A stretch of DNA of 32,130 nt from Clostridia bacterium (lineage in GTDB: Bacteria > Bacillota > Clostridia > Oscillospirales > CAG-272): the NCBI GenBank assembly GCA_017411605.1, contig JAFQPR010000104.1, positions 1-32,130 on the forward strand, read 5' to 3'. Position 1 is the first letter of the stretch; every line of letters begins with the position of its first letter. This document shows, one piece after another, positions 3,352 to 30,618 of this stretch. Made by a program: the position numbers and the translations under genes. The notes under the pieces were generated by a model. That model was not told where the DNA came from and made no database searches. It was given only the letters and a program-made list of their open reading frames with translations.

Positions 3352-3360
3352 TTATTAACT

Positions 3361-3384
3361 TATATCAAAATCCCAGATACCTCT
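3361..3384 (-). pseudogene. Orphan second copy of the peptide-gene 3' end
   Basis: On the minus strand this stretch again encodes Gly-Ile-Trp-Asp-Phe-Asp (GGTATCTGGGATTTTGAT), one base different from the same 18 nt inside the upstream peptide gene (3455-3634), then Ile-Ser-stop. It is not in frame with the peptide gene and has no start of its own. It is either a target duplication made when the adjacent palindromic repeat inserted, or the remnant of a second tandem peptide gene. Confidence 0.6.
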
Positions 3385-3434
3385 TGCCTTCTCCAGTGGG
3401 AGAAGGGGGACCACTTTAGTGGTGGATGAGGTGT
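3379..3434. repeat. REP-like palindromic repeat (two adjacent hairpins)
   Basis: CCTTCTCC/GGAGAAGG and CCACT/AGTGG form two consecutive hairpins, with ACCTCATCCACCACT at one end read on the minus strand. From general knowledge, sequences of this type are dispersed between genes in many Clostridia. Here it lies between the peptide gene and the orphan copy of its last codons, so it probably inserted at the 3' end of the peptide gene. Confidence 0.65.
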
Positions 3435-3454
3435 TCTCATACGTAATTGAAACA

Positions 3455-3634
3455 TTATCCTTGATCAAAGTCCCAGATACCGTCGTTGTCCTCTTTAGGA
3501 GTAGTTTCCGTTCCCGGAGAGGTCGTGATAATATTATCCTCTTCAAGCTTTACCACTTCAAGCTCGGGAGCTATATAACCTAAAGCCCCGAATTCATTCT
3601 TTTCATTCTGCATTCTGAATTCTGCATTCTGCAT
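3455..3634 (-). CDS. Short conserved acidic peptide A of cassette 1
   Basis: A 59-residue peptide with no recognised function. It starts 15 nt after the stop of the giant esterase gene and has a strong AAGGAGGGG ribosome binding site. The first 18 residues (from MQNAEFRMQNEKN) come from a heptanucleotide repeat. The rest reads YIAPELEVVKLEEDN, then IITTSPGTETTPKED, then NDGIWDFDQG. The last part is shared with peptide B at 22974-23105: 23 consecutive identical residues with 12 synonymous codon changes, which shows translation and purifying selection. It has no signal peptide, membrane segment or Cys, is acidic, and carries a Thr/Ser/Pro-rich stretch and one Trp. I recall short clostridial hypothetical proteins with a Y-x-x-P-E-x-E start. 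A modified-peptide precursor, a partner of the giant protein or a regulatory peptide are all possible. Confidence 0.8.
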   Translation of the reverse strand: MQNAEFRMQNEKNEFGALGYIAPELEVVKLEEDNIITTSPGTETTPKEDNDGIWDFDQG

Positions 3635-3649
3635 TTATACCACCCCTCC

Positions 3650-6600
3650 TTATTCGGTTACTACGGAGTCTTTGTATGCTCTTGCGCTCTCGGAGTATTT
3701 CATAAAGCGAGCTACGAGGTTTTCAAGCTCCGCGTTATTCTGTGTCTTAGACCATTCGTAATACGCGTTGATATGGAAGCTTCCGCCCTCTGCGCCGTCA
3801 ACAGTATAAGTTACGGTTTCGCATACCGCGTATGCGTAAGTATCAAGGTCAATATAAGTGCCCGTGGCGTTCGTACCCGTTACAGTGTTAACTTCTACGC
3901 CGTCAATATAGAACTTGTAGAGGCTTGCATTGGCATTTTCTGCAAGATAGAATCTTATAGTGGGAGTTGCGTCAAGCACAAAGGTTACGTCGGAAAGTCC
4001 CGTGCTCGGAGCGGTAGCGCTTCCCTCACCCGAGGGAGCGTTATTCTCGTCGTAATTTTCACCGAGAATAGCGTTTATCTTCGCTATTACATCAGCCGCA
4101 TCGGTATCAAAGTACGCGTATGCCGCTCTTACGTAAGAGAGCACGTCGCAAACGAGAGTCTTTTCAACGGCGCTTCCGTCAGCAAGGATCTTCTCGGCAT
4201 ACTTGATTATACCGAAGGTGAAGGTCGCCGTTGCGGTCTTTTCACCTACTGTAACGCTTGCCTTAAGAGTTACGTTGCGCGCCGCTTCTTTAGCGGAAAG
4301 AGGAATCGAGATGAGATAGAAGGTTTCGTTATCAACGGTTACCTGCTTTAAGCCCGTGAAGTCCGTGTACTCCGCGCCGTCAAGTGTAAATCCTGCGAGG
4401 AAGTCCGCAGCGGGAACGTATACGTTGAGTACAAGATCCCTCGCGAGAGTGAGGCTCATCTTGGGTACGAAGTCGATGCTTGCCGCCTCTGTCGGTCTGA
4501 GCCTGTACGTCACCGTTGTACCGTTATCGGAAATCTCAACGAAGGAAAGGCTAAGTCCGCTTTGTGTCTTATAAAGAGTTGTAGGCTTAATATGAGATTT
4601 CGGGAATGCGAAGGACGTATAGTTTCCGCCCTCCGCCTTATCAAATGCGAAGGTCGATGTGTTCGAGGTATTCATTCCCTGTATTCCGGGTCTCGTAGAA
4701 CCGAAGATTACACTGCCGCCCTCAATAACAACGTTTGCGCCGATAGATATGTGGCTTGCCACAATTCTTGCGGACGTATTACTGCAATTTGTAACGTCTA
4801 CTTTACAATTTTTGACTAAAAGGTTATTATTATGTATCGCAAGGTCATATCCGCTCGTCGCCTGAGTATAAAGCAAAGCATAGTTTCCGCGAAGGGCAGA
4901 ATCCGAATCAAGCTCAAACTCAAGTCCGTCAAGAGTCACGTAGAAGTTATGCACCTTCGACATATCGGTGTTTTCATTATACGCAACCGTCGTAGCGTCA
5001 TCAAGTGTTACGGTCGGAACTCTCGTGTTTATAGCGGAGAATCTTACTATCGGGTCTTTTCCGACGATAAACTTACCGTTCGTTACGGTAATGTAGGTTT
5101 TATATCCGCAGGCGTACGCCTCAGCTCTTATGAATGCGTCGGCAGAGCCGCCGTTACCCATAGTTACGGTATATCCGCCGAGATCTACCGTTATCTTGCC
5201 GTCAAGAGTTGACAGACTCTGCTTAGCGCCGCTCTGACTATCCGTATCCATATTGAAGTCGCGTCTGAGAAGGATAACCGAGCCGTCGCCCGCCGTGCAA
5301 GCCGCAGCAGAGATAGTCGTGGTAAATTTAGTGCCGCCCGCAGTACAATTTCCGTCCTTATCAAAGACTACGAAGGGATATTTGAGAAGCGATGCATAGC
5401 TGTCCGAAATCGTTCCGTAATCGGTAACGAGCGAGCAAAGGGTGTATACCGTGTTACTTCCGTCCACGTAATACTCGGAAAGTTTGAGATCTGTTATATC
5501 GGTATTTTCTGCGTCGTTCACCTGCGCGGTGCTGACGCTGTTTCCGCTCGGAGCGGTAAGGGTAATATACTCACCGTTCTCGCCCTTGGCGAATCTGCAT
5601 ATACTTCCCGTTCCCATAGAAGTGAGAACGAATTTGCCGACGTTACCGTCGTCAGTTACAGTACCTCCGATAACGGTAGCGCTTATCGGAACTGCATTAA
5701 CAGAGGCTACGAGAGTGTGATTCGCAGACGTTGAGGTTCCGCTGTATTTTACGTTACACTCGTTGACCGTAAGCTTATAATCGAAGCCGGATGCCGCAGT
5801 TCCCGAAGCTCCTCCGTAGGAGAAGAGGAATTTACCTGCCGCCGAGCCTGCCTCAACGTTGAGCTTATCAAGCGTAACGTAGAAGCTGTGAGGATTGGTT
5901 GCGCTCTCCGTCGCATAGTTCGCGCTGAATCTTCCGCCGATCGACGCGTATCTTACGATCGGGTCTGCGCCCGCGATTATTTTTCCGTTGGTTACCGTAA
6001 TTTCGGTCTTATATCCCGCGATATGCGCTTCGCATCTGATGAAGGCATCAGCCTTTCCGCCCGCGCCCATCGTAAGAGTGTATCCGCCGAGATCTACGGT
6101 CATTTTTCCGTTTAAGGTCGAGAAGCTGTTCGATCCGCTCGCCTGAGCGTCGGTATCCATATTAAAATCGCGTCTGAGAAGGATAACCGAGCCGTCACCC
6201 GCGGCGCACGCGGTCTGACCTACCGTAGTGGTAAAGAGCTTACCGCCGCCAACGCAGTTTCCGTTCTTATCGAATACTACCCAAGGATAATCCTCTGCGG
6301 ATGCGTATTCGAGAGAAATAGTTCCGTATTTTGTGAGAAGGTTATTTAATTCAAGAGTGTATACAATGTTATCACCCTCGGTTCCGCTTTCCGCGAGCTT
6401 CATCGCTCCCTCGTTATCGGATATGAAGGCGTCGGCGGGAAGAGCCGAGCCCGTAGGAATAACGACCTTCACGTATTCACCGCTCTCATTCTTGTTGAAG
6501 CGGATGGAGCTTCCCGTATCGGAAACGAGCTCGTAAACGTTAAGGTATGCCGCGTTATCCGCAATTATCTTACCGCCATTGATCTTATACGTACCCGTGA

Positions 6601-9600
6601 GCGCCTTGCCGCCGTTGTAGTTTCCGACGGTAAAGATCGTTGTTTCAGCCGCCGCGCCGCTTATATCAAACGTGCAATCGGTGAAGGTCATAGCATTGTT
6701 AGCGGGAGCCGCGCTTGAGCTACGCTCGTAATTATACGTTATGAGCTCTGCGGTGGTTGCTCCGTCTGCAAGACCGAATTTTATATTTTCAAAGTTAAAA
6801 TCAAAGTTTTTAACGTCTGCGGTGTCATAGTCCTCGGTATCCCAGCCAAGTATTCTGACAGCGCCAAGAGTCGTTACGAGAACAGTTCCGTTCACGGTAT
6901 TGACCGTTACGTCACCGTTTGTTTTTGCATCGGCGTTATAAAGCATTACGCCGTTGCAGGTTACGGTATGACCGCCAAGGTCAACGGTTATCGTTCCGTT
7001 ACCCTTGGAAAGGTTATCGAATTTCGTAGTAAAATCAAAGTCGCGCCTTAAGACCATAAACCACTCGTCGCCCGTAGAATAGGTAGCGAAGTAGTTGAGC
7101 GGTCCGTGGAAGGTTGCGTACGCCTTGACGAAGTTTCCGTCCTTATCGAAGATAACCGTCGGGTAATCCTCTGCCGAGGCGTATTCCTCGGGAATGACGC
7201 CGTACTTCGTCGAAAGCTCGCCGAGTTTAAGCGTATTCGTCGTGAAATATCCGTCGTTCGATTCGGCGCTGTAATTCACCACTCCGTCAGCGGAAAGATA
7301 TCCTACAGATGCGTCCGCCGTATAAGGTGTGGGCATTATCAGCGAGGTGTAATTACCTTCGCTGTCCGTCTCGAAGGTTACCGAACGTAAGCTGTTTACA
7401 ATGTTAAGCCATCTTTCCGAATCAAGCTTTATTCTGCCGCCGGTCAAGGTGTAAGAGAGTGAGAGCGCGTCGGACTTTCCGAAGAGAGTCGATTTAAGGT
7501 AAGGAAGATTTTCATTACCAATATTAAAGAGGCATCCGTCAAAGGCGATATTTACCGAAAGGTCAACGTCCGACTCGGTCGAGCTCATAAGCGAGGTCGC
7601 TGCGGTTCTGCCTACGATTCCGAAAACAACGCCCGTGAAGCTTACGTCAAATTCCCTGCCTTGTGCCGCTGTCACAGAGCCCTCATATGAAACAACGGGA
7701 GCATCCGCGAAATAAAGCGTTCCGCCGTATACGTTAACTACGGTCTTTTCCGAGGAAGCCGCGTCTGCCTTAAGCCAGATAGGACCGTGCTCACTCGTTT
7801 TTGCCGTGAGCTTATAGCCGTTAAGGTCGATATTTACCTCTTCAAAATCAGCTATTATCTCGGAATTATCCGAATCGGTGAGCGTATAATCAGCATTCAG
7901 AGTTACGGTATATCCGCTCACGTATGCCGCGAGCGCTTCGCTCCAGCTTGCGTGCTCCGAAACAAGAGTATCACCCGAATAGAGAGCTATGGGTTTATCG
8001 GTATTCACGGGAGCCTTAAGCGCGTATCCGCCGTCGTAGAGCTCCGCGATTCCCGCATTCGAGATACTGATATCGGTGACCGTTTCAACAACGGATATGT
8101 AGTCAATGTATATAGGACAGTCAACGCGCGAGCCGTTTTCCATTCTGCCCTCGGGGGTTACGTCAACGATAAGTCGCTTCGGCTCGTACTCTGCCGCTAT
8201 GCCGAAATCGCTCTCGTGAACGGTATATTCAAGAGTGAACTCAACCCACTCGCCCGCCTTGGTGTTTACGTTTTTGATACTCTGATTATAATCCATGGTA
8301 TCGTATACGTTATCAAGGTAAACGCCCGAAGCGGATTCTATATAGAAGAGTATATCACGGGAAACGGTATCGTACATTCTCACGGTTACGGTGTACTTTC
8401 TGCCGTAATCCGCCTTTGTTACGGTATTGCCGTTATTTATTATATTATCCGAGAACAGAGCCGTGGTCGTTCTCGCGTAGAACTCGTTATCATATTCATA
8501 TTCGGGAACGTTGGGATATCTTGAGCCGTTCATACCGACGATGAACTTGACGGCGCTCTCACCGTCAAAGGTTACCGCCTCGAACTTTTCACCTGCGGCA
8601 TAACGTGAGTCGGCAGAACGGACGTAGTTACCGAATCTCGATTTGTTGCCCGAGGTATATCCCGATGAGCCGAGAGCGGCAAAATCATCTCTGAAGGTCT
8701 CGCTCTCGCCCGCCTCACGCTCGGCTTTGACGTAGAAGATAACCTCATCGCCTACGTTCTTCGTAAGAAGATAATCGGTAACGTCCACGGAATAGAAGCC
8801 CGAGCCATAAAGATTAACCGAGCCGAGATATTCTCCGTCGGTAGAGCTCTTATCGGCAACCGCGTATATGCCTGCAACGTTCGCAGCATCATTCGCTACG
8901 CCAAAGTAGAGTGAATAGCTGTTTCCGCCCGAGCTTGCGGGAACGGTAGCGGTGATATACTTGCCTTCAACCGCAGCCGCCGTACCCTCTGCATACTCGG
9001 TAGTGAACGTCATTACGTAATCTGTACCGAGCGTAGTTCCATTATCACCGACAAGTGATGCGGGAACGGTTACCTTATAGGTAGTATTTCCGAGATAAGC
9101 GCCGCTCGGAGTGAAGGTCCACTCGGTATTTCCGTAAAGTGAGCTCCACTTACCGCTGACGGTGTTACCGTTCGGGTCGCATACCGTAACCTTAGCTATC
9201 TCGTCCGCCGAAACAGAGCCGATAAACTTGATTACTACGTCACCCGTAAACGATATGCCCGCATCGCCGGAGCGAGGTGTGGTATAAACTACCTTAACGC
9301 TCTCACCCTTAAGATAATATCCGAAGAAATCAAAGAAGGCGTCGTAGGTATCAACACCGTGGGTTATATCCTTACTGTGCGTGAGCATATGACCGACGGG
9401 AGATTCAAACTGAAGCGAGGGCGTATCGAGCGCACGCGCAAGGTTAGTTCTTATATTCGACGAGCCCCATGCGGATTGATAATCGTCGTAAAGGTTGCTC
9501 GTGATAAAGATAGGCGCGCCGCCTATGTCCATATCCTCATAAGCGGGACCGCAGCAGGCGTAAAGAACGTTTGCGTAAGCAAGTATTTCCTCACCCGCGC

Positions 9601-11071
9601 GTTTCTCGGAAGAGTATGTCAGCCAGGGCTGAAGCTCTCCGCCGTCAACGGTTATACCCGCGCGAGTCGTGTCCTCCGTCTTACCGTTCTGATAATAGGT
9701 CTCGCCTGCGTGATTCGGAAACTCGCGCTTTGAGGTATACTCGTTGATTCTCGCGTCCATCGCTTCCTCAAGAGTCATACCCTCGGGTACTTCGGTATAA
9801 TCGTGCAGCTCTGCGCTTCCAAGGAAGGTGAACCAACCGCCCTTCGAGTTTCCGTAAACACCGAAGGCGTCCTCGTTAAAGTTGTAGGTCGCGCTGCCAG
9901 CATCGTTTAAATATCTCAGATAGCGCATAGCCGCCGTGTAGATGCGCTTATCATTATAGATATGAAGAGAATAATTCATCTGGTCGCCGGTATATCCGCC
10001 GTTCCCCTTCTGACCGTCGAAATAGCCGTAGCTTGCCATTCTTGCCATAGGCTCCCAAAGGTAATCGAATACCGCGCTTGCATATCCATTGAACAGGAAA
10101 CCGTTCGTATGAGGTCGCTTATCTGCGCTTGTAATACCGCTCGTCGGGAAGGTCGAGGAGTTTGCGAGAGATACCACGGGAACAGCATTCTCGGGACTCG
10201 TGGGATAAACGATGTTTATATAGAGATTAAGATCAACGGGAGTTCCGTCGGGATTGACACAGTCGAATATATCGTTCGCCCAAGTGTGCATTACCTTAAT
10301 ATACTCACCCGTACCGTCGGTATCCGCAAACTTACCCTCGGCATCGGTATACCATACGGGAGCGGAGCCGTCGTTTATTCCGTTTGCAGTGGATTTTCTG
10401 TTACCCTCGGAGTCCGTCCATTTGACGATAACGTCCTCTTTATAGGATCTGAAATCGTTGTTCCAGGTCTCAACTATCTTCTCAAGCGTACCGTCCGCTC
10501 CGTGCTTATCGGCTTCCCAGAAAACGTTTCCGAGAGAAACGTTGCAGCCCGCGGGAGCAACAAAGCTTTCGGGATATTCACCTTCGGGAATCGACGAATT
10601 ATCGAAATACGTACCGGTAGTGATACTGCTTCTCAGAAGCTGAGCAGACCAATCAAGATCGGGGCTGACGGCTTTTGAGTTGTTAAGATAATCGAATACC
10701 GTAACGATATATCCGCGCTCAAGCATCGAGGTTATTATTTTGGTATCGCTATCGGTACCAACCCTCTCTGCCATAGTATTCACAACGTATATGATAACGG
10801 GCGTTCCGCCGTTCGCCATATAATCGGGTACGGCAGTATGCTTCTCCTTATCAAAATACACGGATATCTCCATAGGAATACCTATGTATCCGTCGCTATC
10901 AAGAGTAGCGGTGTCACCGATCTTATACGCCGCAAGGTTGGATTCTATTTCCACCATAGCGTCAACAGCTTCGCCGTCCGTGCTCGCCGCCGCCACGATA
11001 GCTATTCCCAGCGACAGGCATAAAACGATAATAAGACCGACTAATAATAATCTTTGTTTTTTGCTTTTCAT
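3650..11071 (-). CDS. Giant secreted multidomain protein with N-terminal alpha/beta-hydrolase (esterase-like)
   Basis: A 2473-residue exported protein. Residues 1-30 are a Sec signal peptide (basic start, then LLLVGLIIVLCLSLGIAIVA). Residues 40-590 look like an alpha/beta-hydrolase: nucleophile elbow GNSKG with Ser409, possible Asp at 529-530, and His candidates at 561-571. Residues 593-692 resemble an SbsA-type Ig (Big_5) domain. Residues 795-1000 look like a carbohydrate-binding-like beta-sandwich. From about 1080 to 2190 come beta-helix-like repeats; units beginning YGVIPEEYA, YGTISLEYA and YGTISDSYA start at 1290, 1582 and 1885. Residues 2194-2473 form a module also found in the giant protein at 23122-30618. 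No LPXTG, SLH or dockerin was seen. The start has AAGGAAG at good spacing. It is divergent from an AraC gene. The likely role is removing acyl groups from an external glycan; substrate and hydrolase class are inference. Confidence 0.85.
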   Translation of the reverse strand: MKSKKQRLLLVGLIIVLCLSLGIAIVAAASTDGEAVDAMVEIESNLAAYKIGDTATLDSDGYIGIPMEISVYFDKEKHTAVPDYMANGGTPVIIYVVNTMAERVGTDSDTKIITSMLERGYIVTVFDYLNNSKAVSPDLDWSAQLLRSSITTGTYFDNSSIPEGEYPESFVAPAGCNVSLGNVFWEADKHGADGTLEKIVETWNNDFRSYKEDVIVKWTDSEGNRKSTANGINDGSAPVWYTDAEGKFADTDGTGEYIKVMHTWANDIFDCVNPDGTPVDLNLYINIVYPTSPENAVPVVSLANSSTFPTSGITSADKRPHTNGFLFNGYASAVFDYLWEPMARMASYGYFDGQKGNGGYTGDQMNYSLHIYNDKRIYTAAMRYLRYLNDAGSATYNFNEDAFGVYGNSKGGWFTFLGSAELHDYTEVPEGMTLEEAMDARINEYTSKREFPNHAGETYYQNGKTEDTTRAGITVDGGELQPWLTYSSEKRAGEEILAYANVLYACCGPAYEDMDIGGAPIFITSNLYDDYQSAWGSSNIRTNLARALDTPSLQFESPVGHMLTHSKDITHGVDTYDAFFDFFGYYLKGESVKVVYTTPRSGDAGISFTGDVVIKFIGSVSADEIAKVTVCDPNGNTVSGKWSSLYGNTEWTFTPSGAYLGNTTYKVTVPASLVGDNGTTLGTDYVMTFTTEYAEGTAAAVEGKYITATVPASSGGNSYSLYFGVANDAANVAGIYAVADKSSTDGEYLGSVNLYGSGFYSVDVTDYLLTKNVGDEVIFYVKAEREAGESETFRDDFAALGSSGYTSGNKSRFGNYVRSADSRYAAGEKFEAVTFDGESAVKFIVGMNGSRYPNVPEYEYDNEFYARTTTALFSDNIINNGNTVTKADYGRKYTVTVRMYDTVSRDILFYIESASGVYLDNVYDTMDYNQSIKNVNTKAGEWVEFTLEYTVHESDFGIAAEYEPKRLIVDVTPEGRMENGSRVDCPIYIDYISVVETVTDISISNAGIAELYDGGYALKAPVNTDKPIALYSGDTLVSEHASWSEALAAYVSGYTVTLNADYTLTDSDNSEIIADFEEVNIDLNGYKLTAKTSEHGPIWLKADAASSEKTVVNVYGGTLYFADAPVVSYEGSVTAAQGREFDVSFTGVVFGIVGRTAATSLMSSTESDVDLSVNIAFDGCLFNIGNENLPYLKSTLFGKSDALSLSYTLTGGRIKLDSERWLNIVNSLRSVTFETDSEGNYTSLIMPTPYTADASVGYLSADGVVNYSAESNDGYFTTNTLKLGELSTKYGVIPEEYASAEDYPTVIFDKDGNFVKAYATFHGPLNYFATYSTGDEWFMVLRRDFDFTTKFDNLSKGNGTITVDLGGHTVTCNGVMLYNADAKTNGDVTVNTVNGTVLVTTLGAVRILGWDTEDYDTADVKNFDFNFENIKFGLADGATTAELITYNYERSSSAAPANNAMTFTDCTFDISGAAAETTIFTVGNYNGGKALTGTYKINGGKIIADNAAYLNVYELVSDTGSSIRFNKNESGEYVKVVIPTGSALPADAFISDNEGAMKLAESGTEGDNIVYTLELNNLLTKYGTISLEYASAEDYPWVVFDKNGNCVGGGKLFTTTVGQTACAAGDGSVILLRRDFNMDTDAQASGSNSFSTLNGKMTVDLGGYTLTMGAGGKADAFIRCEAHIAGYKTEITVTNGKIIAGADPIVRYASIGGRFSANYATESATNPHSFYVTLDKLNVEAGSAAGKFLFSYGGASGTAASGFDYKLTVNECNVKYSGTSTSANHTLVASVNAVPISATVIGGTVTDDGNVGKFVLTSMGTGSICRFAKGENGEYITLTAPSGNSVSTAQVNDAENTDITDLKLSEYYVDGSNTVYTLCSLVTDYGTISDSYASLLKYPFVVFDKDGNCTAGGTKFTTTISAAACTAGDGSVILLRRDFNMDTDSQSGAKQSLSTLDGKITVDLGGYTVTMGNGGSADAFIRAEAYACGYKTYITVTNGKFIVGKDPIVRFSAINTRVPTVTLDDATTVAYNENTDMSKVHNFYVTLDGLEFELDSDSALRGNYALLYTQATSGYDLAIHNNNLLVKNCKVDVTNCSNTSARIVASHISIGANVVIEGGSVIFGSTRPGIQGMNTSNTSTFAFDKAEGGNYTSFAFPKSHIKPTTLYKTQSGLSLSFVEISDNGTTVTYRLRPTEAASIDFVPKMSLTLARDLVLNVYVPAADFLAGFTLDGAEYTDFTGLKQVTVDNETFYLISIPLSAKEAARNVTLKASVTVGEKTATATFTFGIIKYAEKILADGSAVEKTLVCDVLSYVRAAYAYFDTDAADVIAKINAILGENYDENNAPSGEGSATAPSTGLSDVTFVLDATPTIRFYLAENANASLYKFYIDGVEVNTVTGTNATGTYIDLDTYAYAVCETVTYTVDGAEGGSFHINAYYEWSKTQNNAELENLVARFMKYSESARAYKDSVVTE
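4490..6330 (-). repeat. Two-unit internal repeat in the giant esterase gene, period 909 bp
   Basis: The codons for YGTISLEYA (6328) and YGTISDSYA (5419) are exactly 909 nt, or 303 codons, apart. The tract GCGTCTGAGAAGGATAACCG recurs at 6170 and 5261 with the same offset. A more divergent unit begins at 7204. This is an intragenic duplication of a beta-helix-like domain. Confidence 0.8.
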
Positions 11072-11247: not shown

Positions 11248-12048
11248 ATGAAAATATACAAGAAGGAATTCGGCTACTCCGAGGATTTCCGTTCAAGATA
11301 TCACGACGAAAGCTATTTTGCTAATACGCATATTCATCAGTACATCGAAATAATGTATGTCACCGACGGCAGTCTTAAGCTTACGGTGGATGGCAAGCAA
11401 TGCGAGGTAAAGAGCGGCGAGATAGCCGTAATTACCCCGTTCAGAATACACAGTATTTCATCGACAGACGCAAAATTCAGACTCGCGGTCTGCTCCGTCA
11501 GCTGCGTACCGAACTGCGCCGCGGATAACGAGCTGTTTTTTGCGAGAGAGGACGCGGTCTTTTGTGCGAGCGAGCTCCTTCTTTCGCATATGAACAGTGT
11601 ATTTCTTGCGGAAGATCGGCGCTACGTCGAATATCGCGGAGAAAATGTTCCCAGGCGAATAAAGGCGCTCCTATACCTCTTGCTCACGGAATACGCGGAA
11701 AAGGTGACCAAGGTACTTCCCCAGAAAAGCCGCGACGGGCTTTCCGCCCTACTTATATACATCCACGACCACTACACAGAAAATATTACGCTCGAGTCCG
11801 CCGGCCGCGAAATAGGCTACAATCCGAAATATCTCTCGCAGTGCCTCTCAACCATTCCCGGAATGAGCTTTTCTCTTGCGCTAAACTCCCTTCGCATAAG
11901 CTTTGCAAAAAGACTTCTCGTCACTACCAATTACAAAATAATAAACATAGCATACGAGAGCGGATTTGGCAGCGAGCAAAGCTTCCACCGCGCATTTTTA
12001 AAGCAATCAAAAATGACTCCCGGTGAATACAGAAAACGGTACAAATAA
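11248..12048 (+). CDS. AraC-family transcriptional regulator of cassette 1
   Basis: A 266-residue regulator. The N-terminal cupin-like sensor contains HIHQYIEIMYVTDG and VKSGEIAVITPFRIHSI. The C-terminal double helix-turn-helix shows ESAGREIGYNPKYLSQCL and, in the second helix pair, IINIAYESGFGSEQSFHRAF followed by MTPGEYRKRYK. This is the arrangement of sugar-responsive AraC activators. It is transcribed divergently from the giant esterase gene with a 176-bp shared control region, so regulation of that gene is the natural inference. The start ATG follows GAGAGAAG, and a consensus promoter lies upstream. A bidirectional terminator separates it from the convergent aldose epimerase gene. The ligand is unknown. 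Confidence 0.93.
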   Translation: MKIYKKEFGYSEDFRSRYHDESYFANTHIHQYIEIMYVTDGSLKLTVDGKQCEVKSGEIAVITPFRIHSISSTDAKFRLAVCSVSCVPNCAADNELFFAREDAVFCASELLLSHMNSVFLAEDRRYVEYRGENVPRRIKALLYLLLTEYAEKVTKVLPQKSRDGLSALLIYIHDHYTENITLESAGREIGYNPKYLSQCLSTIPGMSFSLALNSLRISFAKRLLVTTNYKIINIAYESGFGSEQSFHRAFLKQSKMTPGEYRKRYK

Positions 12049-12099: not shown

Positions 12100-13020
12100 T
12101 TATTTTACAGAAAATTCGGTTATGAGCTTTATACTCTCTTTCGCGGGAATAGATATAAGTCCTTTTTCTTCTGCGGATGACTCGAGATGGAAGCAATCTA
12201 TAGCCGAGGTCTGAGGCTCGCAAACGAAATACGGAGCGCCGTCCTTACGCCAGAGCATACGGTATTTATAATCGTCCGACGCTCTGTAGATTATGCGTTT
12301 TCCCGAGCGCTTATCGTATATTGCGCATTCGTTACCGCCGTGGCCGTAAAACGCGCTGAGAGCCGACTTTGCTATAGGATATTCGCCGCAGTTCATAAGA
12401 CGCTCTCTTTCTCTGCCGCCGATATATTCAAGGGTTGGCAGATATTTTTCGTCCCTTATATGCTCCTTCGTTACCGAAGCCCCGAAGTAGCAATCCTCGG
12501 TTGAAGAACCGCTAATGAAGGGGGCATTGAAGGTCGTATGGAACGCAAGCATAAAGGGCATATTTTCATCCGAAAGATTGGTCACGCTCACTACCTCTCG
12601 CATTCCGTCGGCACTCAAGGAGTATTCCCTCTCAAGCACAAAGGCGTGCGGAAATCCGAGATATTCTCCCGCTGCTGCAGAGTAGGAAAACTTAACGCGG
12701 TCTGCCCGAAGGTCGGTTATTTCGAAGGGCGTTTCATAAAGCTTCCCGTGAAGGTGGCAGCCCGTTTTCTTTTCGTTTATGGGAAAGACGTATTTCCTTC
12801 CCTCGAACTCAAATTCACCGCCCCTTATTCTGTTCGGAGGAAAGAGTATCGCGTTACCGAAGAGGAATATCTCAGAGAAGAGCTGCTCCTCGGAGTCCGG
12901 CGAGCGGAGAATATCCGCGCCGCTCTCTTTATGGACCAATTTATAGCAATTACCGCCGAGGTCGGAGCGGAAGGCGGCTTCATACCCGCCTCCCGAGATT
13001 TTTACGTCTGTTTTAATCAT
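12100..13020 (-). CDS. Aldose 1-epimerase (galactose mutarotase family)
   Basis: A 306-residue cytoplasmic enzyme that should interconvert alpha and beta anomers of free aldoses. Visible family residues are NRIRGG at 63-68, the HLHG motif with His89/His91, a second catalytic His at 161 in LAFHTTFN, and the likely base Glu268 in FVCEPQTSAID. The length is slightly short of the roughly 340 residues usual for GalM. Its ATG overlaps the stop of the DUF5107/TPR gene by four bases (ATGA at 13017-13020), so the two are translationally coupled and probably act on the same sugar. A GGTGAG ribosome binding site lies within the upstream gene. The true sugar could differ from galactose. Ends at a bidirectional terminator. 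Confidence 0.9.
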   Translation of the reverse strand: MIKTDVKISGGGYEAAFRSDLGGNCYKLVHKESGADILRSPDSEEQLFSEIFLFGNAILFPPNRIRGGEFEFEGRKYVFPINEKKTGCHLHGKLYETPFEITDLRADRVKFSYSAAAGEYLGFPHAFVLEREYSLSADGMREVVSVTNLSDENMPFMLAFHTTFNAPFISGSSTEDCYFGASVTKEHIRDEKYLPTLEYIGGRERERLMNCGEYPIAKSALSAFYGHGGNECAIYDKRSGKRIIYRASDDYKYRMLWRKDGAPYFVCEPQTSAIDCFHLESSAEEKGLISIPAKESIKLITEFSVK

Positions 13021-16169: not shown

Positions 16170-16174
16170 AAACA

Positions 16175-22973: not shown

Positions 22974-23105
22974 TTAACCTAAGTCAAAATCCCAAATACC
23001 GTCGTTATCCTCTTTTGGTGTTGTTTCGGTACCCGGCGAAGTCGTAATAATATCCTTTGCTTTAATCTCAACGATCTCGATTTCCGGATCTATATATTTT
23101 TTCAT
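22974..23105 (-). CDS. Short conserved acidic peptide B of cassette 2
   Basis: A 43-residue peptide of unknown function starting 16 nt after the stop of the giant protein gene, with TTGGAGGT as a clear ribosome binding site. It begins MKKYIDPEIEIVEIKAKD, continues IITTSPGTETTPKED and ends NDGIWDFDLG. From the double Ile to the Phe-Asp it is identical over 23 residues to peptide A at 3455-3634, while 12 of those codons carry synonymous differences. The N-terminal part keeps the pattern Tyr-Ile-x-Pro-Glu-hydrophobic-Glu. There is no signal peptide, transmembrane segment or Cys. A terminator follows at once. It may be a modified-peptide precursor, a partner of the giant protein or a feedback signal; none is shown by sequence. 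Confidence 0.82.
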   Translation of the reverse strand: MKKYIDPEIEIVEIKAKDIITTSPGTETTPKEDNDGIWDFDLG

Positions 23106-23121
23106 CGATCTTTACCTCCAA

Positions 23122-26100
23122 TCAAGCGTTTCCCTGAGTAAGCGTTACAGTTCCGCTATCGGGTACGATATCTATAAGCACGTAGCTCGTTCCGTCCTCA
23201 GCCTTAATAACCTCGTAGGCTTCTGTGCCGCAAACCGCAACGCTCCAGCTGTCGGGAACGCTTACCTTGACGGTAAGCGCCACGTTGTAAACGTCATCCC
23301 TCTCGCCGTCCGTGAGCGTGATTCTTATCTCGCCGTTTTCAAACTCGGTCTCAAGCTCTGCAGTTGCCCATTCGCTGAAATAGAGAGTCGCCTCGGTATT
23401 GGTTGCTATCCAGATATTTCTTTCAAGCGCATACTTAAAGAGCATTTCCGCCTGAGCCTCTGTGATATTATGACCGTTTGCAGATTCGTTCTCAAGCATC
23501 AAATGTATGCAGAAGCACGCCCAGCCGTTAATATCGAGCGCCGCATCAATATAATCCGTCCAGTTGGAAATATCGTCGTTGACAAGTCCCTCGGGATTTG
23601 CATTATAATGCTCAACCATATATCTCGGGATCGTAACTCGCTCTTCAAACGTGCCGAAGTTATCACTCGTTACTATCTTGGTATAGAGATCAAGGTCAGG
23701 ATCGTACGTAGCGCCAAAGGTGGAGTTAACACCTATAAGATCACCGTTTTCGTACGCATTCTTTATTACCTGATTAAGATATTCCTTATAGCTCGGTATC
23801 ACAGTACCGTCGGGGAGCGTATAATCGATAGTTCTGACGCCGATACCCGGATTTATAAAGGAGAGCATCTCTCCTTTCGGTCCGACATACTCAGGGAATA
23901 GCGTCTCGAGTATCTGCTTAGATGCATATATCTCCTTGGTAACGCTTCCCTCGGGCATAACCTCCGATACAATTATCTCCTTTGAATTGGTCACGTACTC
24001 GAAGGAGCCTCCGTCGTCGTTGCTTCCAAAGTAATCGTGAGTAAACGAGTGGTTTACTATCTCGCAATCGGTAGAGCTCAAAATATCGTTCCAGAAATCT
24101 ACGCTCTGCTGATTTACCTCGTATACGTATTTGCCGTCAACCATAACATAGTTCGGAATACCGTCGCCGTCGCTGTCTTCTACCGCAAGCGTTGCCACCT
24201 GCTTTACCGGAAGCGCAAACGTGAAATTAAGCTCAGGATTTTCCTCTACCATTTCCTTAGCGAATCTTGCGGTAGCCCAATTTCCGTCGTCAATAACGAA
24301 CGTAACTGCGGCATCTGCGCCGTTCTTGTTTACGATCTTTGCGCTAGGAGCGTTAAGCCTTGCGCTTACGGTTTTTTCAACCGTAGTATTGGCAAATCCG
24401 TATCCTACGGTTATTTCAACCGTACAATTATTATATACGTCGGAAAATTCCATATTTTCAAGAATTCTCACGCAAACATTCACGTTGCTCGAAAGCGCTG
24501 ACTCTGCTATAGCCGTGATAGCCTTAATGAGCGCCGCCTTATCGTCAGCAGTCATCGCGCCGATCTCAAGAGCCTCGATTACCTTTGCCGCCTCCGCGCT
24601 CGGCTCACTCTCGTATCCCTCGATGGCGATATATGCATACTGCGCATCGCCTGTAAGTTCAAAGGAATTTATCATTTTCTCAACGCAAAGCTTAGCGATC
24701 TCGGTAAATTCATCGGGTAATTTTCCTATAGTCAGAGAGTCCCTTACGTCGGGAATCGCATAAGTATCAAGCCTCAGCTCCTCGGGAATGAGAAGCTCCG
24801 CAAAGCAAAGCCCCGCAATATATCTGCCCACAGTCGTATTAAGATGAACGTTATCTCTCTGGAGTCCCTTTACATGATTGAATGAATCGCCCTCGTCGAC
24901 GTAATACTGAAGCCCGAGATACGTGCTTCTTGCGTTCTGGATTGCCGTACCCACGGGGATGAAGCCGTCAAAGCCTCTTCCGCTCTCGGTACCCTTGTAT
25001 TCTATCGCGCTCTTTGCCACGCCGAGCATTTTATTATAATTTGTCAAACCGCCGTTGAGCGCCGCAGCATGATAATTCGACCACGTCATATAATAATATA
25101 TCTCAGCGGTACCGCACCATACGCTTATACGGTCGATAAGATACGGTATAGATGCGGTGAGCGAATAGAATTTCTCAACAGCCACCGTACCGTCGGAGTA
25201 AACTGCACCGCTCGCATCGATGCCTCCGTACAACGCCTCGTTACCGTAGGGCTGAAGCGTTACGTAATCCCACGCATCGTATGTGAGTCCCGCCTTGCTT
25301 GTGTAATCCGAGTAGGATTTCCAAATACCGTTCGTATCGTCGTTTATGAGATAGAAGGTATAAGCCTCGGAGCCGCTTTCCGCAACGGTAGCATGCCACG
25401 CGGCAGTCTTTGCGCCGCTGTAAAGCACGCCGATCTGCACGAAAACGTCGTCTCCGACCATAGATTTTATTAAGCTGTAAAGTTGGCTATCCTGATTTAC
25501 GCTGACGTCAGCCGCGTCGTTTGAAAGGCTGTTTCCTATAAGGAGGAGCTTGAATGCCTTTTGAAGCGTTATCTCAACTCCGCTCTGCGAATATCCGTCA
25601 AGTGCGGTGCCCGCAAAGCCATTCAGAGTAACGTTCGTTCTGTTCTTAAGAAAATCCGATCCGAGATATGAAAGACCGTCTCCCACGGTTATTGAAAGCT
25701 CACCGTCGCACGCAGACTCGGTTGCGAAGGCAGCGTTACCTATCGAGGATATTCCGTTTGCAACCGTGACCTCGGAAAGCTCCGTATAGTCTGCAAAATA
25801 GGACGCGGGGATCTCTCGTATTCCCTTCTCTATAACGATCCTCTTGACCTCGCTTTTTTCGATCTTATCAAGCCACGGAGAGCTTTCGTGAAGCTCGGCG
25901 GGCTCGCTCTCGTCAACGGGCGCAAGCGTCAGAGTTCCGAGAGAAAAGCTGTAAGAAAGATTTCCGACCTCTCCCACGAACGAGGCATCAAGATCAACGT
26001 ACTTGAAGCCGTGCTTATCAGCGTACGCCTTTACGTTGTTCGACGAGCCGTAGCTGTAAAGAGTAAGATCCGTGCAATTGCTTGCGTATCTGTTTACGAA

Positions 26101-29100
26101 TATATGTATGCTTCCGTTGTTGTTTGTGAAGTCTACTATCTCAATATTGGGGTTTTCGATATAAACGTCGGTAAAGAGCGCATTCTTCTGATCGTATCTA
26201 CCGATAGTGATCTGCTGTATCTTAGTGATATTTGCGGGAATCGTATAGCTCGTGATACCGGACTTAAACGAATCCATAAAGAGGTTTGCGGGGTATTCGG
26301 TAAGACTGTCGGAAAGGTCGGAGTACTCAAGATTCTTCAAATATCCGAAGCTGCCGCGTCCAAGCTTCGTTATACCGTCGCAAACGATAACGCGAGTTAT
26401 AAGATCTCTGTATTCCTTGAAGGGCTGATTTGCGCAGTTCCAAGCACAGTTGTAGGTTTCCCCGCTTCCTGTAACCTTGAGCGTGCCGTCCTCGTAGAGC
26501 GTATAAACAGCGCTATCGGTAGGCGTTGTTCCCGCGCCGAGATTTCCGGTCGTAATAACCGAAAGAGCCTTGAGATTGAACTTATTGCAGTTTGAGCAAT
26601 TCTGACGCATAGCACCGTCCGAGGTCTTGGATACGCTTTCGCTTATATACCAATCACCAAAAGTATGTCCGTGAGCGGCAACGTAATCAGAGGCGTAGGA
26701 ATATCCGCAATCAGAGCAGGTATGGAGAGTATATCCCTGTCCCTCGCAGGTAGGAGGCACGAGAGATTCAACGTAAGCGTGCTTAACCGCAAGCACGCTG
26801 TCTCTGTAAGCTCTTGCGCTCTGGCAGTATTTCCAGAAACGCTCGGTAAGAGCCACGAGAGCCGCCTTATCCGCGCCGGTGTAGCTCTCTCCGCAGACGT
26901 ACGTATAATAAGCGTTTACGTGGAAGCTGCCGAGATCGGTATCACCCTTTTTAGCGGTAACCGTCTCGCAAAGCGCATATGCGTACACGTCGATATCAAC
27001 GTATGCTCCCTTACTGTTGGTGCCGGAAACGGTTTGAGCAAGCTTTCCGCCGACGAAGAACGTATAATCATCAGCATCGGCGCCCTGCGCAAGATAAAAT
27101 CTTACCGAAGGAGTCTCGTTGAGCACGAACGTCACGCTGGCGAATTCGGTCATATCCGAATAGGATGCACCGTCGTAAATAGGCTGGTTTTCAGCATCAT
27201 AATTTTCGCCGAGAATTTTATCCATTCTCTGCATTGCGACATCATCGTCGGTCTTGAAATATTCATACGCCGCACGAATGTAGGAGATCACGTTGAGTAT
27301 AAGGCTCGACTCTTCCCCCTCTCCGTCTGATGCGATATTCTCCGCATACTTAGGAATACTGAAGGTAAAGGTACCGGTAGCTATCTTATCACCCGTAACG
27401 ATCCTGGCCACAAGCTTGATATCTCTCGCAGCCGCTCTTGCCTCGAGGGGAACGCTTACGAGATAATAGTCCTTGGAATCAAGAGTTTCAACTCTTACGT
27501 CCCCAAGCTCCTCTGCACCGAAAAGCTCGCCGTCAAGCGTAAAGGAATGGAGTATATCAATCTTTGGAACGTAAACGTTCATAACGAGGTCTCTATCGAG
27601 AGTTATACTCATTTTGGGAGTAAAGTCAATACCAACAGTGTCCACGGGTCTGAGACGGCAAAGCATACCGTCCTCCGTGTCCTTGACCTTTGCAAAGGCA
27701 TAGTCCGCACCGCTGACGCTCTTGTAGACCTCGCTTGCAGGCGGAACGGCAGCACCGCTATCAAGAAGGAGAGACGTGTAGTTGCCGTCTGCGCCCTTGC
27801 CGAATTTTATGCTGTCTGCTCTGCCGTTTGCATTGCTGTCGGTAGCTATAAGATCAGAGTATGAAAAGCTGTTTTTTGCGATAATGCTTCCTCCGTTAAC
27901 GGTAAGGTTGCATACGACTCTGTCGTAGCCGTCAGTAGCGGTCATATCAAGCATTTTCATCAGCGATTTAGATCTGTTCAAATCGAAGATACAATTATTG
28001 AACGTAACGTCTACATCAACGTAGAATCCATCGTCTGCAACGTCATTATACTCGCCCTCCGAGGCTCTGATCAAGCCATAATTCGACTTGCTTGCCGAGC
28101 AGGTGAAGGTTACGTTGTCAAATACAAATGGAACTGTGAACGGAGATGCACATTTATACTTATACTGAATACAAATCATCGACCCTTTTTCATACGCGTT
28201 CTCTATATTTCCGTTTTTGAACGTAAACGTAGCGCGCTTGCTGGTGGTCGCATAATTTCTCTGAATGAATATAGCGTAATAATAATTAATCTTAAGAGTA
28301 TAGCCATTTAAATCGAGCGTATAAGAGCCTGTGAGCGCAGAAACGCTGGTCGCAGTATTTACAGCTGCGTTATTTCTCAAGAGAATTATGTAATCCTTTG
28401 AGGAAGCATTTAAATTCAATATAGCTTTATTTGCCGCGCCAAGCTCTGCGTATCCGCCGACGAAAGTATTGGTATCACCGTTCTTATAGAAGACCACTAT
28501 GGGATAGGCATCGGCGTCTATAAACTCCTCGTCAATATCACCGTAGGGGGTTGACGTTGAGGGAGGAACTACGGGCTCGTCGGAGGATATAGTATAGGTT
28601 TCGGTTTCATCATCGTAAGCGGTTCTTACGAACGCATGCTCTTCGCCGCTAACGGTAAGATATTTATCGTTTTTCGAGGGAGCTTCCGTTCCCTTAGGAA
28701 GAATGAGCTTCGTGTAGTTGCCCGCTGCATCCGCACCGAATACTACGGTATCCGCTCTGCCGTTTTCATTGCCGTCTGCCGCGATAAAGTCAGCCTTGGA
28801 GAACGCACCGCCGGCAATGATCTGTCCGCCGTTTACGGTTACGTTATACACGGTTCTGTCATAAGCGCCAACACCGGTCATATCAAGCATCTTAACGCCT
28901 GCTGCGGAATTTTTGTAATCGAACGTGCAGTTGTTAAACGTAGCCTGCAAATTAGCATAGAAGCCGCTATCCTCACCCATCGATGCAGATGGATTTTCAG
29001 GCGTGTAGAACAGACTGTATTCACCATCACCTGTGACCTTGAAGGTTACGTTATCAAAGGTCATAGGAATCGCGAAGGGTCTGTTGCATCTTGCAGTATA

Positions 29101-30618
29101 GTCGAGGGCAAAGAGTGCGTGAGAATCACCCGCCTTAAGTATAGTTCCGTTCTTGATATTTATCTTTACTCTGGTATCAAGCTCAGTAGTAGTGCTCACG
29201 AGATCTCTCTTAATATAGAAGAGGAGCGTATTTCCGCACTGAGTAAGCTGATAACCATTGAGGTCTAACGTCAAGCTTGCCGTGAGGGCACCGATGTTTT
29301 TGTAAGTTCTTGCCTCTGCGTTATCTCTCATAAGGATAACGAAATCCTTCTTCCAGGCACTCGTCGTATTGATAATTGCATTCTCAGCAACACCGAGATC
29401 GTAATATCCGCCAATGAATGCATATCCGTCGGTAGTTTTTTCAAAGGCTACGAAGGGATAGGTCACGGGGTTAGAATACTTGGCGTCGATAATACCGTAG
29501 TTTTCGGTAGCAACGGGCTGCATTTCAACCTTCTCGGGGATGGTAAACTCGAAGCAGTTCTTGCTTGCGTTGTAAACGTAGTCCTTGCCCTCGCCGTTTT
29601 CAAGGCTGTGATATGTGGAAACGTATTCTACCTTAACACGGCTTCCGTCCTCGGAGAAATAGAACATTGCAACCATACCCGTGGTATAGTCCTGCTTCGA
29701 ATCGAGGCTCTGAGGATCGATAAGGAACTGAGTTACGGTATTTCCGTTATCTCCGAGATCCTGACGCCATACGATATCGTTGTTGGGATCGTGGCCGGAA
29801 AGCACTAAAATTATATTCTCGTGCTGAGATGCGAGCTTATACCAGATATCGTTTCCGTTATTTCTCGAGGAGGTGTAATTAGCCTTTCTCGGAGGAACGC
29901 TATTGTTCGCGTCAAACGTGGTACCGTCCTTGCACATATAAGCGTGAGTGGTGAGGATGACCTTGTAGTCGGGGTTAGCCGCTATCTCGCCCGATGCCCA
30001 AGTGAGAATATCGTTATGAGGTCCGTAATCAAAGACGAAGACCATATACTTGTGTCCGCCGATGGTAAACTTCATATAGTAGTTACCAAGGCTCGTTCCG
30101 TCGTAATATCCGATCTCACCGCCCGTGAAATTGGGGTTAGCCGCAAAATACTCGTCAAGCTTAGCTACGGTATCGTGGTTACCGCGAACGAGGGTATAGG
30201 GGATGCCCGCATTTTCAAGCTTTGCGTGCTGTTCAACGGCAATATCCCATTCAAGATCGGTCTGATCTATACCGTCGTCTGCGGTCTGATCCACACCGTC
30301 CTTATCGGTGATATCACCAAGTCCCATTACAAGACTGATTTTTTTGGAGTCCTTGTTTGCAACGATCCAATCGTAGATATACGACGTGGTATCCTTGCCG
30401 TAGTACACGTCTCTGTAAACGTGCTTCTGAGTATCACCGATAACCGCGAACGAATAAGCGTAATCCTTCGCAGGATCGGTGTTTTCGGTGAACTCGGCAG
30501 GTATACCGTCAGCATACGCAGCAGAGCTCGTGAGCACAGTTGCTGCCAAAACCACCGTGATGATAATTACCGCAAAAACGGATAATAAACCGATCTTCTT
30601 GCCGTTCTTCATCTTCAT
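23122..30618 (-). CDS. Giant secreted multidomain protein: metallophosphoesterase, SGNH-like and NodB-like modules
   Basis: A 2498-residue exported protein. Residues 1-35 are a Sec signal peptide. Residues 52-345 form a calcineurin-like metallophosphoesterase with complete metal motifs: GDTQ (Asp62), GLGD (Asp102), GNHD (147-149), His225 and SGHD (His276). Beta-helix-like units begin at 374 (YGIIDAKY) and 692 (YGDIDEEF). Residues 985-1275 share the C-terminal module of the giant protein at 3650-11071. A CxxC-rich stretch near 1290-1345 (CSDCGYSY, CSNCN) precedes BspA-like leucine-rich repeats to about 1640. Residues 1686-1960 resemble DUF4886/SGNH hydrolases (LLLIGNSLSND; RDNVHLN with His near 1925). 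Residues 2100-2400 look like a NodB-type deacetylase (VIDDG, then HSFTH near 2186). The ATG at 30618 follows AGGAGG. It may remove phosphate and acyl groups from external glycans, which is inference. Confidence 0.85.
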   Translation of the reverse strand: MKMKNGKKIGLLSVFAVIIITVVLAATVLTSSAAYADGIPAEFTENTDPAKDYAYSFAVIGDTQKHVYRDVYYGKDTTSYIYDWIVANKDSKKISLVMGLGDITDKDGVDQTADDGIDQTDLEWDIAVEQHAKLENAGIPYTLVRGNHDTVAKLDEYFAANPNFTGGEIGYYDGTSLGNYYMKFTIGGHKYMVFVFDYGPHNDILTWASGEIAANPDYKVILTTHAYMCKDGTTFDANNSVPPRKANYTSSRNNGNDIWYKLASQHENIILVLSGHDPNNDIVWRQDLGDNGNTVTQFLIDPQSLDSKQDYTTGMVAMFYFSEDGSRVKVEYVSTYHSLENGEGKDYVYNASKNCFEFTIPEKVEMQPVATENYGIIDAKYSNPVTYPFVAFEKTTDGYAFIGGYYDLGVAENAIINTTSAWKKDFVILMRDNAEARTYKNIGALTASLTLDLNGYQLTQCGNTLLFYIKRDLVSTTTELDTRVKINIKNGTILKAGDSHALFALDYTARCNRPFAIPMTFDNVTFKVTGDGEYSLFYTPENPSASMGEDSGFYANLQATFNNCTFDYKNSAAGVKMLDMTGVGAYDRTVYNVTVNGGQIIAGGAFSKADFIAADGNENGRADTVVFGADAAGNYTKLILPKGTEAPSKNDKYLTVSGEEHAFVRTAYDDETETYTISSDEPVVPPSTSTPYGDIDEEFIDADAYPIVVFYKNGDTNTFVGGYAELGAANKAILNLNASSKDYIILLRNNAAVNTATSVSALTGSYTLDLNGYTLKINYYYAIFIQRNYATTSKRATFTFKNGNIENAYEKGSMICIQYKYKCASPFTVPFVFDNVTFTCSASKSNYGLIRASEGEYNDVADDGFYVDVDVTFNNCIFDLNRSKSLMKMLDMTATDGYDRVVCNLTVNGGSIIAKNSFSYSDLIATDSNANGRADSIKFGKGADGNYTSLLLDSGAAVPPASEVYKSVSGADYAFAKVKDTEDGMLCRLRPVDTVGIDFTPKMSITLDRDLVMNVYVPKIDILHSFTLDGELFGAEELGDVRVETLDSKDYYLVSVPLEARAAARDIKLVARIVTGDKIATGTFTFSIPKYAENIASDGEGEESSLILNVISYIRAAYEYFKTDDDVAMQRMDKILGENYDAENQPIYDGASYSDMTEFASVTFVLNETPSVRFYLAQGADADDYTFFVGGKLAQTVSGTNSKGAYVDIDVYAYALCETVTAKKGDTDLGSFHVNAYYTYVCGESYTGADKAALVALTERFWKYCQSARAYRDSVLAVKHAYVESLVPPTCEGQGYTLHTCSDCGYSYASDYVAAHGHTFGDWYISESVSKTSDGAMRQNCSNCNKFNLKALSVITTGNLGAGTTPTDSAVYTLYEDGTLKVTGSGETYNCAWNCANQPFKEYRDLITRVIVCDGITKLGRGSFGYLKNLEYSDLSDSLTEYPANLFMDSFKSGITSYTIPANITKIQQITIGRYDQKNALFTDVYIENPNIEIVDFTNNNGSIHIFVNRYASNCTDLTLYSYGSSNNVKAYADKHGFKYVDLDASFVGEVGNLSYSFSLGTLTLAPVDESEPAELHESSPWLDKIEKSEVKRIVIEKGIREIPASYFADYTELSEVTVANGISSIGNAAFATESACDGELSITVGDGLSYLGSDFLKNRTNVTLNGFAGTALDGYSQSGVEITLQKAFKLLLIGNSLSNDAADVSVNQDSQLYSLIKSMVGDDVFVQIGVLYSGAKTAAWHATVAESGSEAYTFYLINDDTNGIWKSYSDYTSKAGLTYDAWDYVTLQPYGNEALYGGIDASGAVYSDGTVAVEKFYSLTASIPYLIDRISVWCGTAEIYYYMTWSNYHAAALNGGLTNYNKMLGVAKSAIEYKGTESGRGFDGFIPVGTAIQNARSTYLGLQYYVDEGDSFNHVKGLQRDNVHLNTTVGRYIAGLCFAELLIPEELRLDTYAIPDVRDSLTIGKLPDEFTEIAKLCVEKMINSFELTGDAQYAYIAIEGYESEPSAEAAKVIEALEIGAMTADDKAALIKAITAIAESALSSNVNVCVRILENMEFSDVYNNCTVEITVGYGFANTTVEKTVSARLNAPSAKIVNKNGADAAVTFVIDDGNWATARFAKEMVEENPELNFTFALPVKQVATLAVEDSDGDGIPNYVMVDGKYVYEVNQQSVDFWNDILSSTDCEIVNHSFTHDYFGSNDDGGSFEYVTNSKEIIVSEVMPEGSVTKEIYASKQILETLFPEYVGPKGEMLSFINPGIGVRTIDYTLPDGTVIPSYKEYLNQVIKNAYENGDLIGVNSTFGATYDPDLDLYTKIVTSDNFGTFEERVTIPRYMVEHYNANPEGLVNDDISNWTDYIDAALDINGWACFCIHLMLENESANGHNITEAQAEMLFKYALERNIWIATNTEATLYFSEWATAELETEFENGEIRITLTDGERDDVYNVALTVKVSVPDSWSVAVCGTEAYEVIKAEDGTSYVLIDIVPDSGTVTLTQGNA

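Follow-up and report, generated by a model that had tools for sequence, protein, structure and literature searches.

The closest described system is that of the Linear Polyphosphorylated Peptides (LPPs; LppA, LppK, LppB, LppS, LppD and LppN) of Popov et al. (2026, PMC13381572). According to the main text of that paper, the RRE LppB binds the YxxP of the leader, with D70 and N33 fixing the Tyr and the Pro, the HprK-like kinase LppK phosphorylates Ser3 of the core, and the SipW-like LppS, with its Ser/His/Asp, removes the leader. The leader consensus given there is YxxPxVLxHQxIxFETxxS, and a cluster has one to three precursors with variable C termini. The role of the LPPs is stated to be unknown in the Discussion, and the words secreted, surface, exoprotein, S-layer and Clostridi- are absent from the main text. 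HprK and NTP-transferase genes are also described from lasso peptide clusters (PMC7533575).

We turn our attention to the window, by which we mean the whole stretch of 32,130 nucleotides that was analysed. It is contig C103 of the assembly G000 (2.8 Mb, 82% complete) of a gut bacterium, and its terminal segment, 32002-32130 on the minus strand, is the 3' part of a 23S rRNA gene. Two small peptide genes in it, A and B, are well supported as precursors of an LPP-like kind. The features, in window coordinates, are the following.

3355..3381 (-), partial extra tail end (GIWDFDIS, stop), separated from the upstream peptide A by a palindrome-rich insert
3455..3634 (-), peptide A, 59 aa, LPP-like precursor
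3464..3532 (-), 23-codon block of peptide A, identical in protein to that of B
3643..3649 (-), Shine-Dalgarno-like GGAGGGG before the ATG of peptide A
3650..11071 (-), giant A, 2473 aa, signal-peptide-like N-terminus, Big_5; partner gene of peptide A
3656..3937 (-), C-terminal A4 domain of giant A, about 96 aa
22974..23105 (-), peptide B, 43 aa, LPP-like precursor; leader MKKYIDPEIEIVEIKAKDIITTS, core PGTETTPKEDNDGIWDFDLG
22983..23051 (-), 23-codon block of peptide B
23115..23119 (-), Shine-Dalgarno-like GGAGG before the ATG of peptide B
23122..30618 (-), giant B, 2498 aa, signal-peptide-like N-terminus, Metallophos, LRR_5 and DUF4886; partner gene of peptide B
26791..27084 (-), A4 domain of about 96 aa, internal in giant B

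The initial annotation had described A and B as minus-strand reading frames that start 15 and 16 nt past the stops of the 2473-aa and 2498-aa genes, each with its own strong ribosome binding site, and this description is confirmed. It holds also for the comparison of the two blocks, where 12 of the 23 codons differ by 12 nucleotides, all in third positions, with no residue changed; when 12 substitutions were placed at random, the protein of the block stayed unchanged in none of 200,000 trials. Peptide A consists of an N-terminal extension, the leader YIAPELEVVKLEEDNIITTS and the core PGTETTPKEDNDGIWDFDQG. The first 17 or so residues (MQNAEFRMQNEKN...) have a repeat-derived look and resemble the extension MQNSKCRMQNEKNE and its variants, and the body of the family starts at the Tyr of YIAPELEVV. 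Peptide A is off the consensus at one position, where it has Asn in a place held by Asp in 60 and by Glu in 8 of the 68 peptides compared. Searches of Pfam (E up to 0.1) and NCBIfam (E up to 1) give no match for either peptide, and no signal peptide is seen on the small peptides by eye.

The initial annotation had pictured a family of two, and this picture is incomplete: peptide B matches 31 places in G000, and 24 of them have the same main tail (GTETTPK...DGIWD). It had also missed that the family is multi-copy, that the peptide divides into leader and core, and that it is related to an already described class of RiPPs. When substitutions are compared among these 24 of the 31 places, the tail (21 codons) has a pS of 0.69, which is near saturation, a pN of 0.037 and a ratio of 0.053, and the leader (19 codons) has a pS of 0.60, a pN of 0.34 and a ratio of 0.56. 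The 13 copies without the MQNSKC-type extension give ratios of 0.085 for the tail and 0.49 for the leader. A high pS together with a low pN means that the copies are old and that the tail is held by selection, recent copying not being the cause. That the peptide is translated and selected at the protein level, as had been proposed from the pair, is thus strongly supported by the 24 paralogous tails.

The extension MQNSKCRMQNEKNE and its variants are present in 11 of the 24 main-tail copies, peptide A included; in the window the corresponding repeat-like stretch, MQNSKCRMQNEK and variants in translation, lies at about 3595-3634. Contigs C12, C19, C39, C44, C46 and C73 end at or near copies that bear the extension. 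A second partial tail end lies 3' of a peptide gene on contig C44 of G000 (L042, contig coordinates 24918-25082). The inserts in front of the partial tail copies are palindrome-rich in the window (3355-3454, minus strand) and different in C44, and they look as if they had landed in the tail, with a full tail kept upstream.

We now consider the family in other genomes. The front half, YxxPEIEVV..DIITTS, is conserved across genomes while the tails vary, and this conserved half is the leader. Leader matches are found in 64 of 245 genomes of the order (E up to 0.1) and in 39 of 391 genomes of the class (E up to 0.001), G000 being counted in both. Several genomes of the class have many matches (16 in G477, 13 in G284, 12 in G285, 9 in G318 and 8 in G563). 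Ser is present in 68 of 68 leaders, where the pattern allowed S, N or T, and YxxP in 57 of 68, the other 11 starting with Phe, a result that is partly by construction because the rows were picked by a leader pattern. In an alignment of 26 hand-picked relatives only one Asp and one Ser are invariant, and the Tyr is nearly so. Copies within one genome often have a common tail; for instance, SINSQGNNDNTVGIWELPLNWDL or a close variant of it forms the end of nine copies in G005. A common core per genome is not universal, however, because G012, G014, G016 and G477 have mixed tails, those of G477 being mostly dissimilar (mean similarity 0.14). Clostridia bacterium RGIG4071, a MAG from roe-deer caecum, has two related copies, both directly behind a large ORF, with the tails PGTETSTQDNNDGIWDLEFDL and PGTETSTQDDWDGSWEISSAVEL. 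Because the tails of other genomes differ, the search for the GIWDFD motif would miss most of the relatives.

The next question is "what are the proteins that the peptides accompany?" The A4 domain is common to the peptide-bearing giants of G000, in which it has 23 copies with E below 1e-26. Leaving aside the strong copy on C14, which runs off its contig, 22 of 22 strong copies adjoin a peptide gene, 21 with the peptide downstream and one (C85) with the peptide upstream. The peptides at these 22 copies comprise 19 with the main tail, one with another tail (C100) and two truncated by the end of the contig (within the leader on C19, behind an extension of the MQNSKC type on C73). The weak A4 matches on C80 (two), C98 and C49 have no peptide in view by the pattern, and a further weak match, on C45, is cut by the contig end. 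An A4 domain that is strictly a C-terminal partner domain was considered and rejected, since giant B and the giants of C62 and C95:3449 carry it internally. By a simple rule, 30 of the 34 proteins upstream of peptides are signal-peptide-like, compared with 39 of the 159 ORFs that served as controls from these loci, and of the four that fail the rule, three start right at the border of the sequence examined. For five genomes from four further families the count is 35 of 38, these being the peptides with full-length upstream genes among 43 that were listed from a larger number matched. A protein encoded upstream in G261 (L142), secreted-looking by eye, presumably ends in two dockerin-like repeats, and in G098 (L135) we take the 339-aa protein that follows the peptide to be an SLH protein by its look.

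Each of the two giants is preceded by a divergent gene for a regulator of the AraC family with a cupin or AraC-binding domain (11248-12048 and 30741-31625, plus strand), and similar-looking regulator genes are seen by eye near other peptide-bearing giants. The window also has two large proteins with DUF5107 and TPR (13017-16175 and 17487-20675, minus strand); an aldose-epimerase gene is close to them.

Because the leader resembles leaders that are bound by an RRE, PqqD was searched. A discrete PqqD over the cut-off is found in 22 of the 25 genomes of the genus (G000-G024), and an HprK-like kinase also in 22, on contig C26 in G000. Three genomes of the genus (G006, G015 and G022) have neither the kinase nor a discrete PqqD over the cut-off, nor a peptide match, and in G004, G009, G010, G019, G020 and G021 a match to peptide B is absent in a weak single-sequence search despite the presence of kinase and PqqD. 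Among 244 genomes of the order (G000 left out, the peptide scored by the leader profile, the counts uncorrected for phylogeny), peptide and kinase occur together in 48, the peptide only in 4, the kinase only in 18 and neither in 174; for PqqD at 44 bits or above the corresponding numbers are 44, 8, 23 and 169. Twelve families hold both peptide and kinase.

The genes are also linked in position. In 12 genomes of the order, belonging to 8 families, the peptide gene precedes PqqD by 0.8-3.1 kb and shares its strand; one of the 12 is G149, in which the leader matched only at an E of 0.019. In the clearest cases, the operons of G098, G261 and G221, the peptide is together with the kinase, PqqD, a SipW-like peptidase, a putative ABC exporter and an NTP-transferase. 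The order in G098 is giant, peptide, 339-aa protein, kinase, PqqD, peptidase, ABC and NTP-transferase, and in G261 two peptides lie between secreted-looking proteins and the kinase; ABC genes are present in the operons of G098, G261 and G163. PqqD neighbourhoods could be called cleanly in 12 of 20 loci, and these 12 have an HprK-like gene in 10, an S24/S26 peptidase in 8, an ABC gene in 5 and an NTP-transferase in 5. In G000 itself the genes are on three contigs, with the kinase on C26, PqqD and the peptidase on C80 and the NTP-transferase on C70; ABC genes are seen there only 3.5 kb beyond the kinase, and none could be clearly assigned as the exporter. A chain-length-determinant-like gene, named by eye, neighbours the kinase in G000 (C26), G261 and G016, and genes that look by eye like polysaccharide genes surround the NTP-transferase on C70.

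The individual proteins can be related to solved and curated families. The kinase profile matches in the PDB (E up to 0.1) only HPr kinase (1ko7, 0.039) and PEP carboxykinase (0.072). The kinase-like protein of G024 matches in NCBIfam (E up to 0.01) only SynChlorMet ScmC (TIGR04249, 3e-9) and HprK-related kinase A (TIGR04352, 1e-3), in both cases far under the curated cut-offs (36.5 of 125 bits and 18.3 of 200 bits), which sets it apart from these families. The SynChlorMet cassette includes radical SAM genes. In L089 of G037 a 100-aa ORF with a leader-like start (YEKPMVYFEEL) lies between PqqD and an HprK-like gene (227-529 relative to PqqD), and a gene that looks by eye like a radical SAM gene follows; this locus is possibly a radical-SAM variant of the same system. 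The NTP-transferase on C70 belongs to PF14907, which a protein of G012 also matches, and similar genes are found in the operons. The peptidase of G000 matches PF00717 and, under its cut-off, TIGR02228. Ser, His and a GD-type Asp are present in 23 of 23 peptidases examined by motif (21 with a narrower pattern); the Asp, whose assignment is uncertain, is placed 8-17 residues after the His, in contrast to 25 residues in LppS as described (PMC13381572).

The best solved relatives of the PqqD profile are the lasso RREs TbiB1 and TfuB1, ahead of LppB. The counterparts of N33, D70 and F74 of LppB are kept in 25, 26 and 22 of 28 PqqD proteins respectively, and G000 has all three. In the Trp-type PbaB1, Q and G stand in place of D70 and N33. 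The B2 peptidase (PF13471) is not found in G000 or G005 and is found in 3 of 40 relatives; as for a cyclase, G000 (82% complete) gives only a weak match to PF00733 over 48 positions and no full cyclase-like match.

Combining these results, we compare the system with the LPPs as far as the main text of PMC13381572 describes them. Common to both are the YxxP leader, a discrete RRE with the D and N that fix Tyr and Pro, a SipW-like Ser/His/Asp peptidase, an HprK-like kinase, an NTP-transferase and a Ser just past the leader; in the operon forms there are also ABC genes that may encode the exporter. They have in common also the chain-length-determinant-like neighbour and the polysaccharide-looking genes (both by eye here), and the lack of a macrolactam cyclase, subject in the incomplete G000 assembly to the partial PF00733 match. 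The leader here is nevertheless different: in the 26 hand-picked rows it reads YxxPExEIxxxxxxDIITTS, one residue longer from Tyr to Ser, without HQ and with D-[IV] in place of FET, so that the full consensus is not matched while the acid and the Ser are kept. Because of this departure the cut site and the phosphorylated residue are not certain; the acid at -2 and the Ser at +3 of the LPPs likely have their counterparts in the Asp and Ser of DIITTS, from which we infer the exact cut site. The arrangement differs as well, since the 24 main-tail precursors of G000 are dispersed and not one to three in a cluster, the enzyme genes are spread over three contigs, the precursors adjoin genes of secreted proteins, and the main-tail precursors have one common, frozen core. 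The paeninodin-type lasso system (PbaA, PbaB1), as described in the same source, likewise has an RRE-bound leader, an HprK-like kinase and an NTP-transferase, but it has a WxxP leader with Q/G in the RRE instead of YxxP with D/N, and its B2 peptidase and cyclase have in G000 no match and a weak partial match, respectively. The modified-peptide core, one of the functions that the initial annotation had offered, is favoured by this LPP-type set of RRE, kinase and peptidase genes.

Another of its suggestions, a partner of the exoprotein, is favoured by the co-variation of the tail with the C-terminal sequence of the upstream protein. Within each genome we compare, by Mantel correlation, the similarity of the tails with that of the last 110 residues of the upstream proteins, leaving out peptides without a readable upstream gene, G012, G002, the truncated copy on C19 and peptide A of the window, whose Asn fails the pattern. 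The tail tracks the C-terminus in five of the six genomes tested: G000 (r 0.42, p 0.007, n 20; leader 0.33), G285 (r 0.95, p 0.0005, n 9; leader 0.65), G563 (r 0.67, p 0.018, n 7; leader 0.61), G284 (r 0.68, p 0.0005, n 10; leader 0.21) and G477 (r 0.58, p 0.001, n 11; leader 0.36). No co-variation is found in G005 (r -0.30, p 0.85, n 8), where the tails are nearly invariant. G285 and G563 have two core types with two matching C-terminal types; in G285 five peptides with one tail are behind one C-terminal type and four with the other tail are behind the other. The rest of the upstream protein (up to 600 residues) is uncorrelated with the tail in G000, G563 and G477 and correlated with it in G285 (0.73) and G284 (0.46). 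On the DNA the leader lies between the C-terminus and the tail, and linkage alone would predict for the leader a correlation at least as strong; the comparison, limited by the unequal length and variability of leader and tail, therefore favours a functional pairing without being proof of it. Recombination or duplication that moves 3' gene ends together with the peptide could explain part of the co-variation, and duplication of whole loci does contribute to it.

The reading that we consider probable is that A and B are dispersed precursors of one LPP-like RiPP whose core would pair specifically with a domain of the secreted protein from the gene upstream, the partner role being suggested by the patterns in these sequences. 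The peptide is encoded just past the gene of the secreted protein with its own ribosome binding site, and this adjacency means that the two are probably made together. By homology, the Tyr-x-x-Pro of the leader and the beta-strand-like EIEIVEI would bind the discrete PqqD/RRE. The HprK-like kinase would phosphorylate the conserved Ser of D-[IV]-[IV]-T-[TA]-S, the SipW-like Ser/His/Asp peptidase would cut near D-[IV] to free a core of about 20 residues (here approximately TTSPGTETTPKEDNDGIWDFDLG), and the NTP-transferase and ABC exporter, in lineages having both, would finish and export it. The co-variation suggests that the mature core then may act as the cognate partner of a domain in the upstream-encoded protein, for example by docking that protein at the surface or on exopolysaccharide. 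One core would serve nearly all A4-bearing giants of G000, and its tail would thus be frozen while leader and giants diverge. The polysaccharide-looking neighbours (by eye) of the kinase and NTP-transferase genes make surface attachment a reasonable guess.

Other explanations have to be weighed against this one. The peptide could be an intracellular reporter, co-made with the exoprotein and read without export by the kinase/RRE system as a measure of total exoprotein expression. The same core in 24 loci, the ribosome binding site close behind the stop of the giant, the presence of an HprK-like kinase and the small peptide's lack of a visible signal peptide would all suit such a device, which we nonetheless think unlikely: the peptidase beside PqqD in 8 of 12 loci and the ABC gene in the operons of G098 and G261 point to release and export, and a tail that co-varies with the C-terminus of an extracellular protein is not expected of a reporter. 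An unprocessed small partner, such as a chaperone that keeps the giant export-competent, with the RRE genes unrelated, would account for the position mostly beside secreted proteins and for the association of A4 domain and peptide. It is very unlikely in view of the strong co-occurrence and operon linkage with kinase and PqqD, the YxxP leader with matching RRE residues, and the very different rates at which leader and tail evolve. A fusion of giant and peptide by stop readthrough or frameshift was rejected, since 33 short spacers range from -4 to 28 nt with no constant frame.

The YxxP leader, the lasso RREs at the head of the PqqD relatives and the HprK and NTP-transferase known from lasso clusters (PMC7533575, as far as described there) recall the precursor of a lasso peptide or bacteriocin. 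We regard this as highly improbable, because the B2 peptidase is missing from G000 (82% complete), the cyclase match there is the weak one already mentioned, and 24 scattered loci that have one and the same core do not resemble the locus of an antibiotic. A lasso ring from G1 to E8/D9 can be drawn by eye on the core of G000 and not on those of several relatives, and it was set aside. As for a DNA repeat or gene conversion without protein function, the repeat-like 5' extension in 11 of the 24 copies and the occurrence of inserts and partial tail copies are what it would leave behind, yet the near-saturated synonymous sites of the tail with so low a pN contradict it, and we give it practically no chance.

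We return to the LPP-like precursors paired with secreted proteins. In the open-licence literature that was searched, no description of such a pairing was found, and new with respect to the published LPPs are the scattered precursors, the frozen main core and the placement after secreted proteins. In a genome like G000, most precursors would escape a search confined to RiPP gene clusters. The finding suggests that the job of this phosphorylated-peptide class is to partner secreted proteins: LPP-like precursors that neighbour secreted proteins in several clostridial-looking families, and whose cores co-vary with the C-termini of these proteins, give a concrete hypothesis for the role of the LPPs. 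More tentatively, LPP-type phosphopeptides may form a surface pairing code, in which the mature, phosphorylated, possibly sugar-linked core would be the specific ligand or attachment point for a given C-terminal or internal domain of the secreted protein that is made along with it; we hold this extension to be possible, at less than even confidence. If true, this would give the LPPs their first biological role, and it would mean that bacteria have a new means of displaying giant enzymes on their exopolysaccharide.
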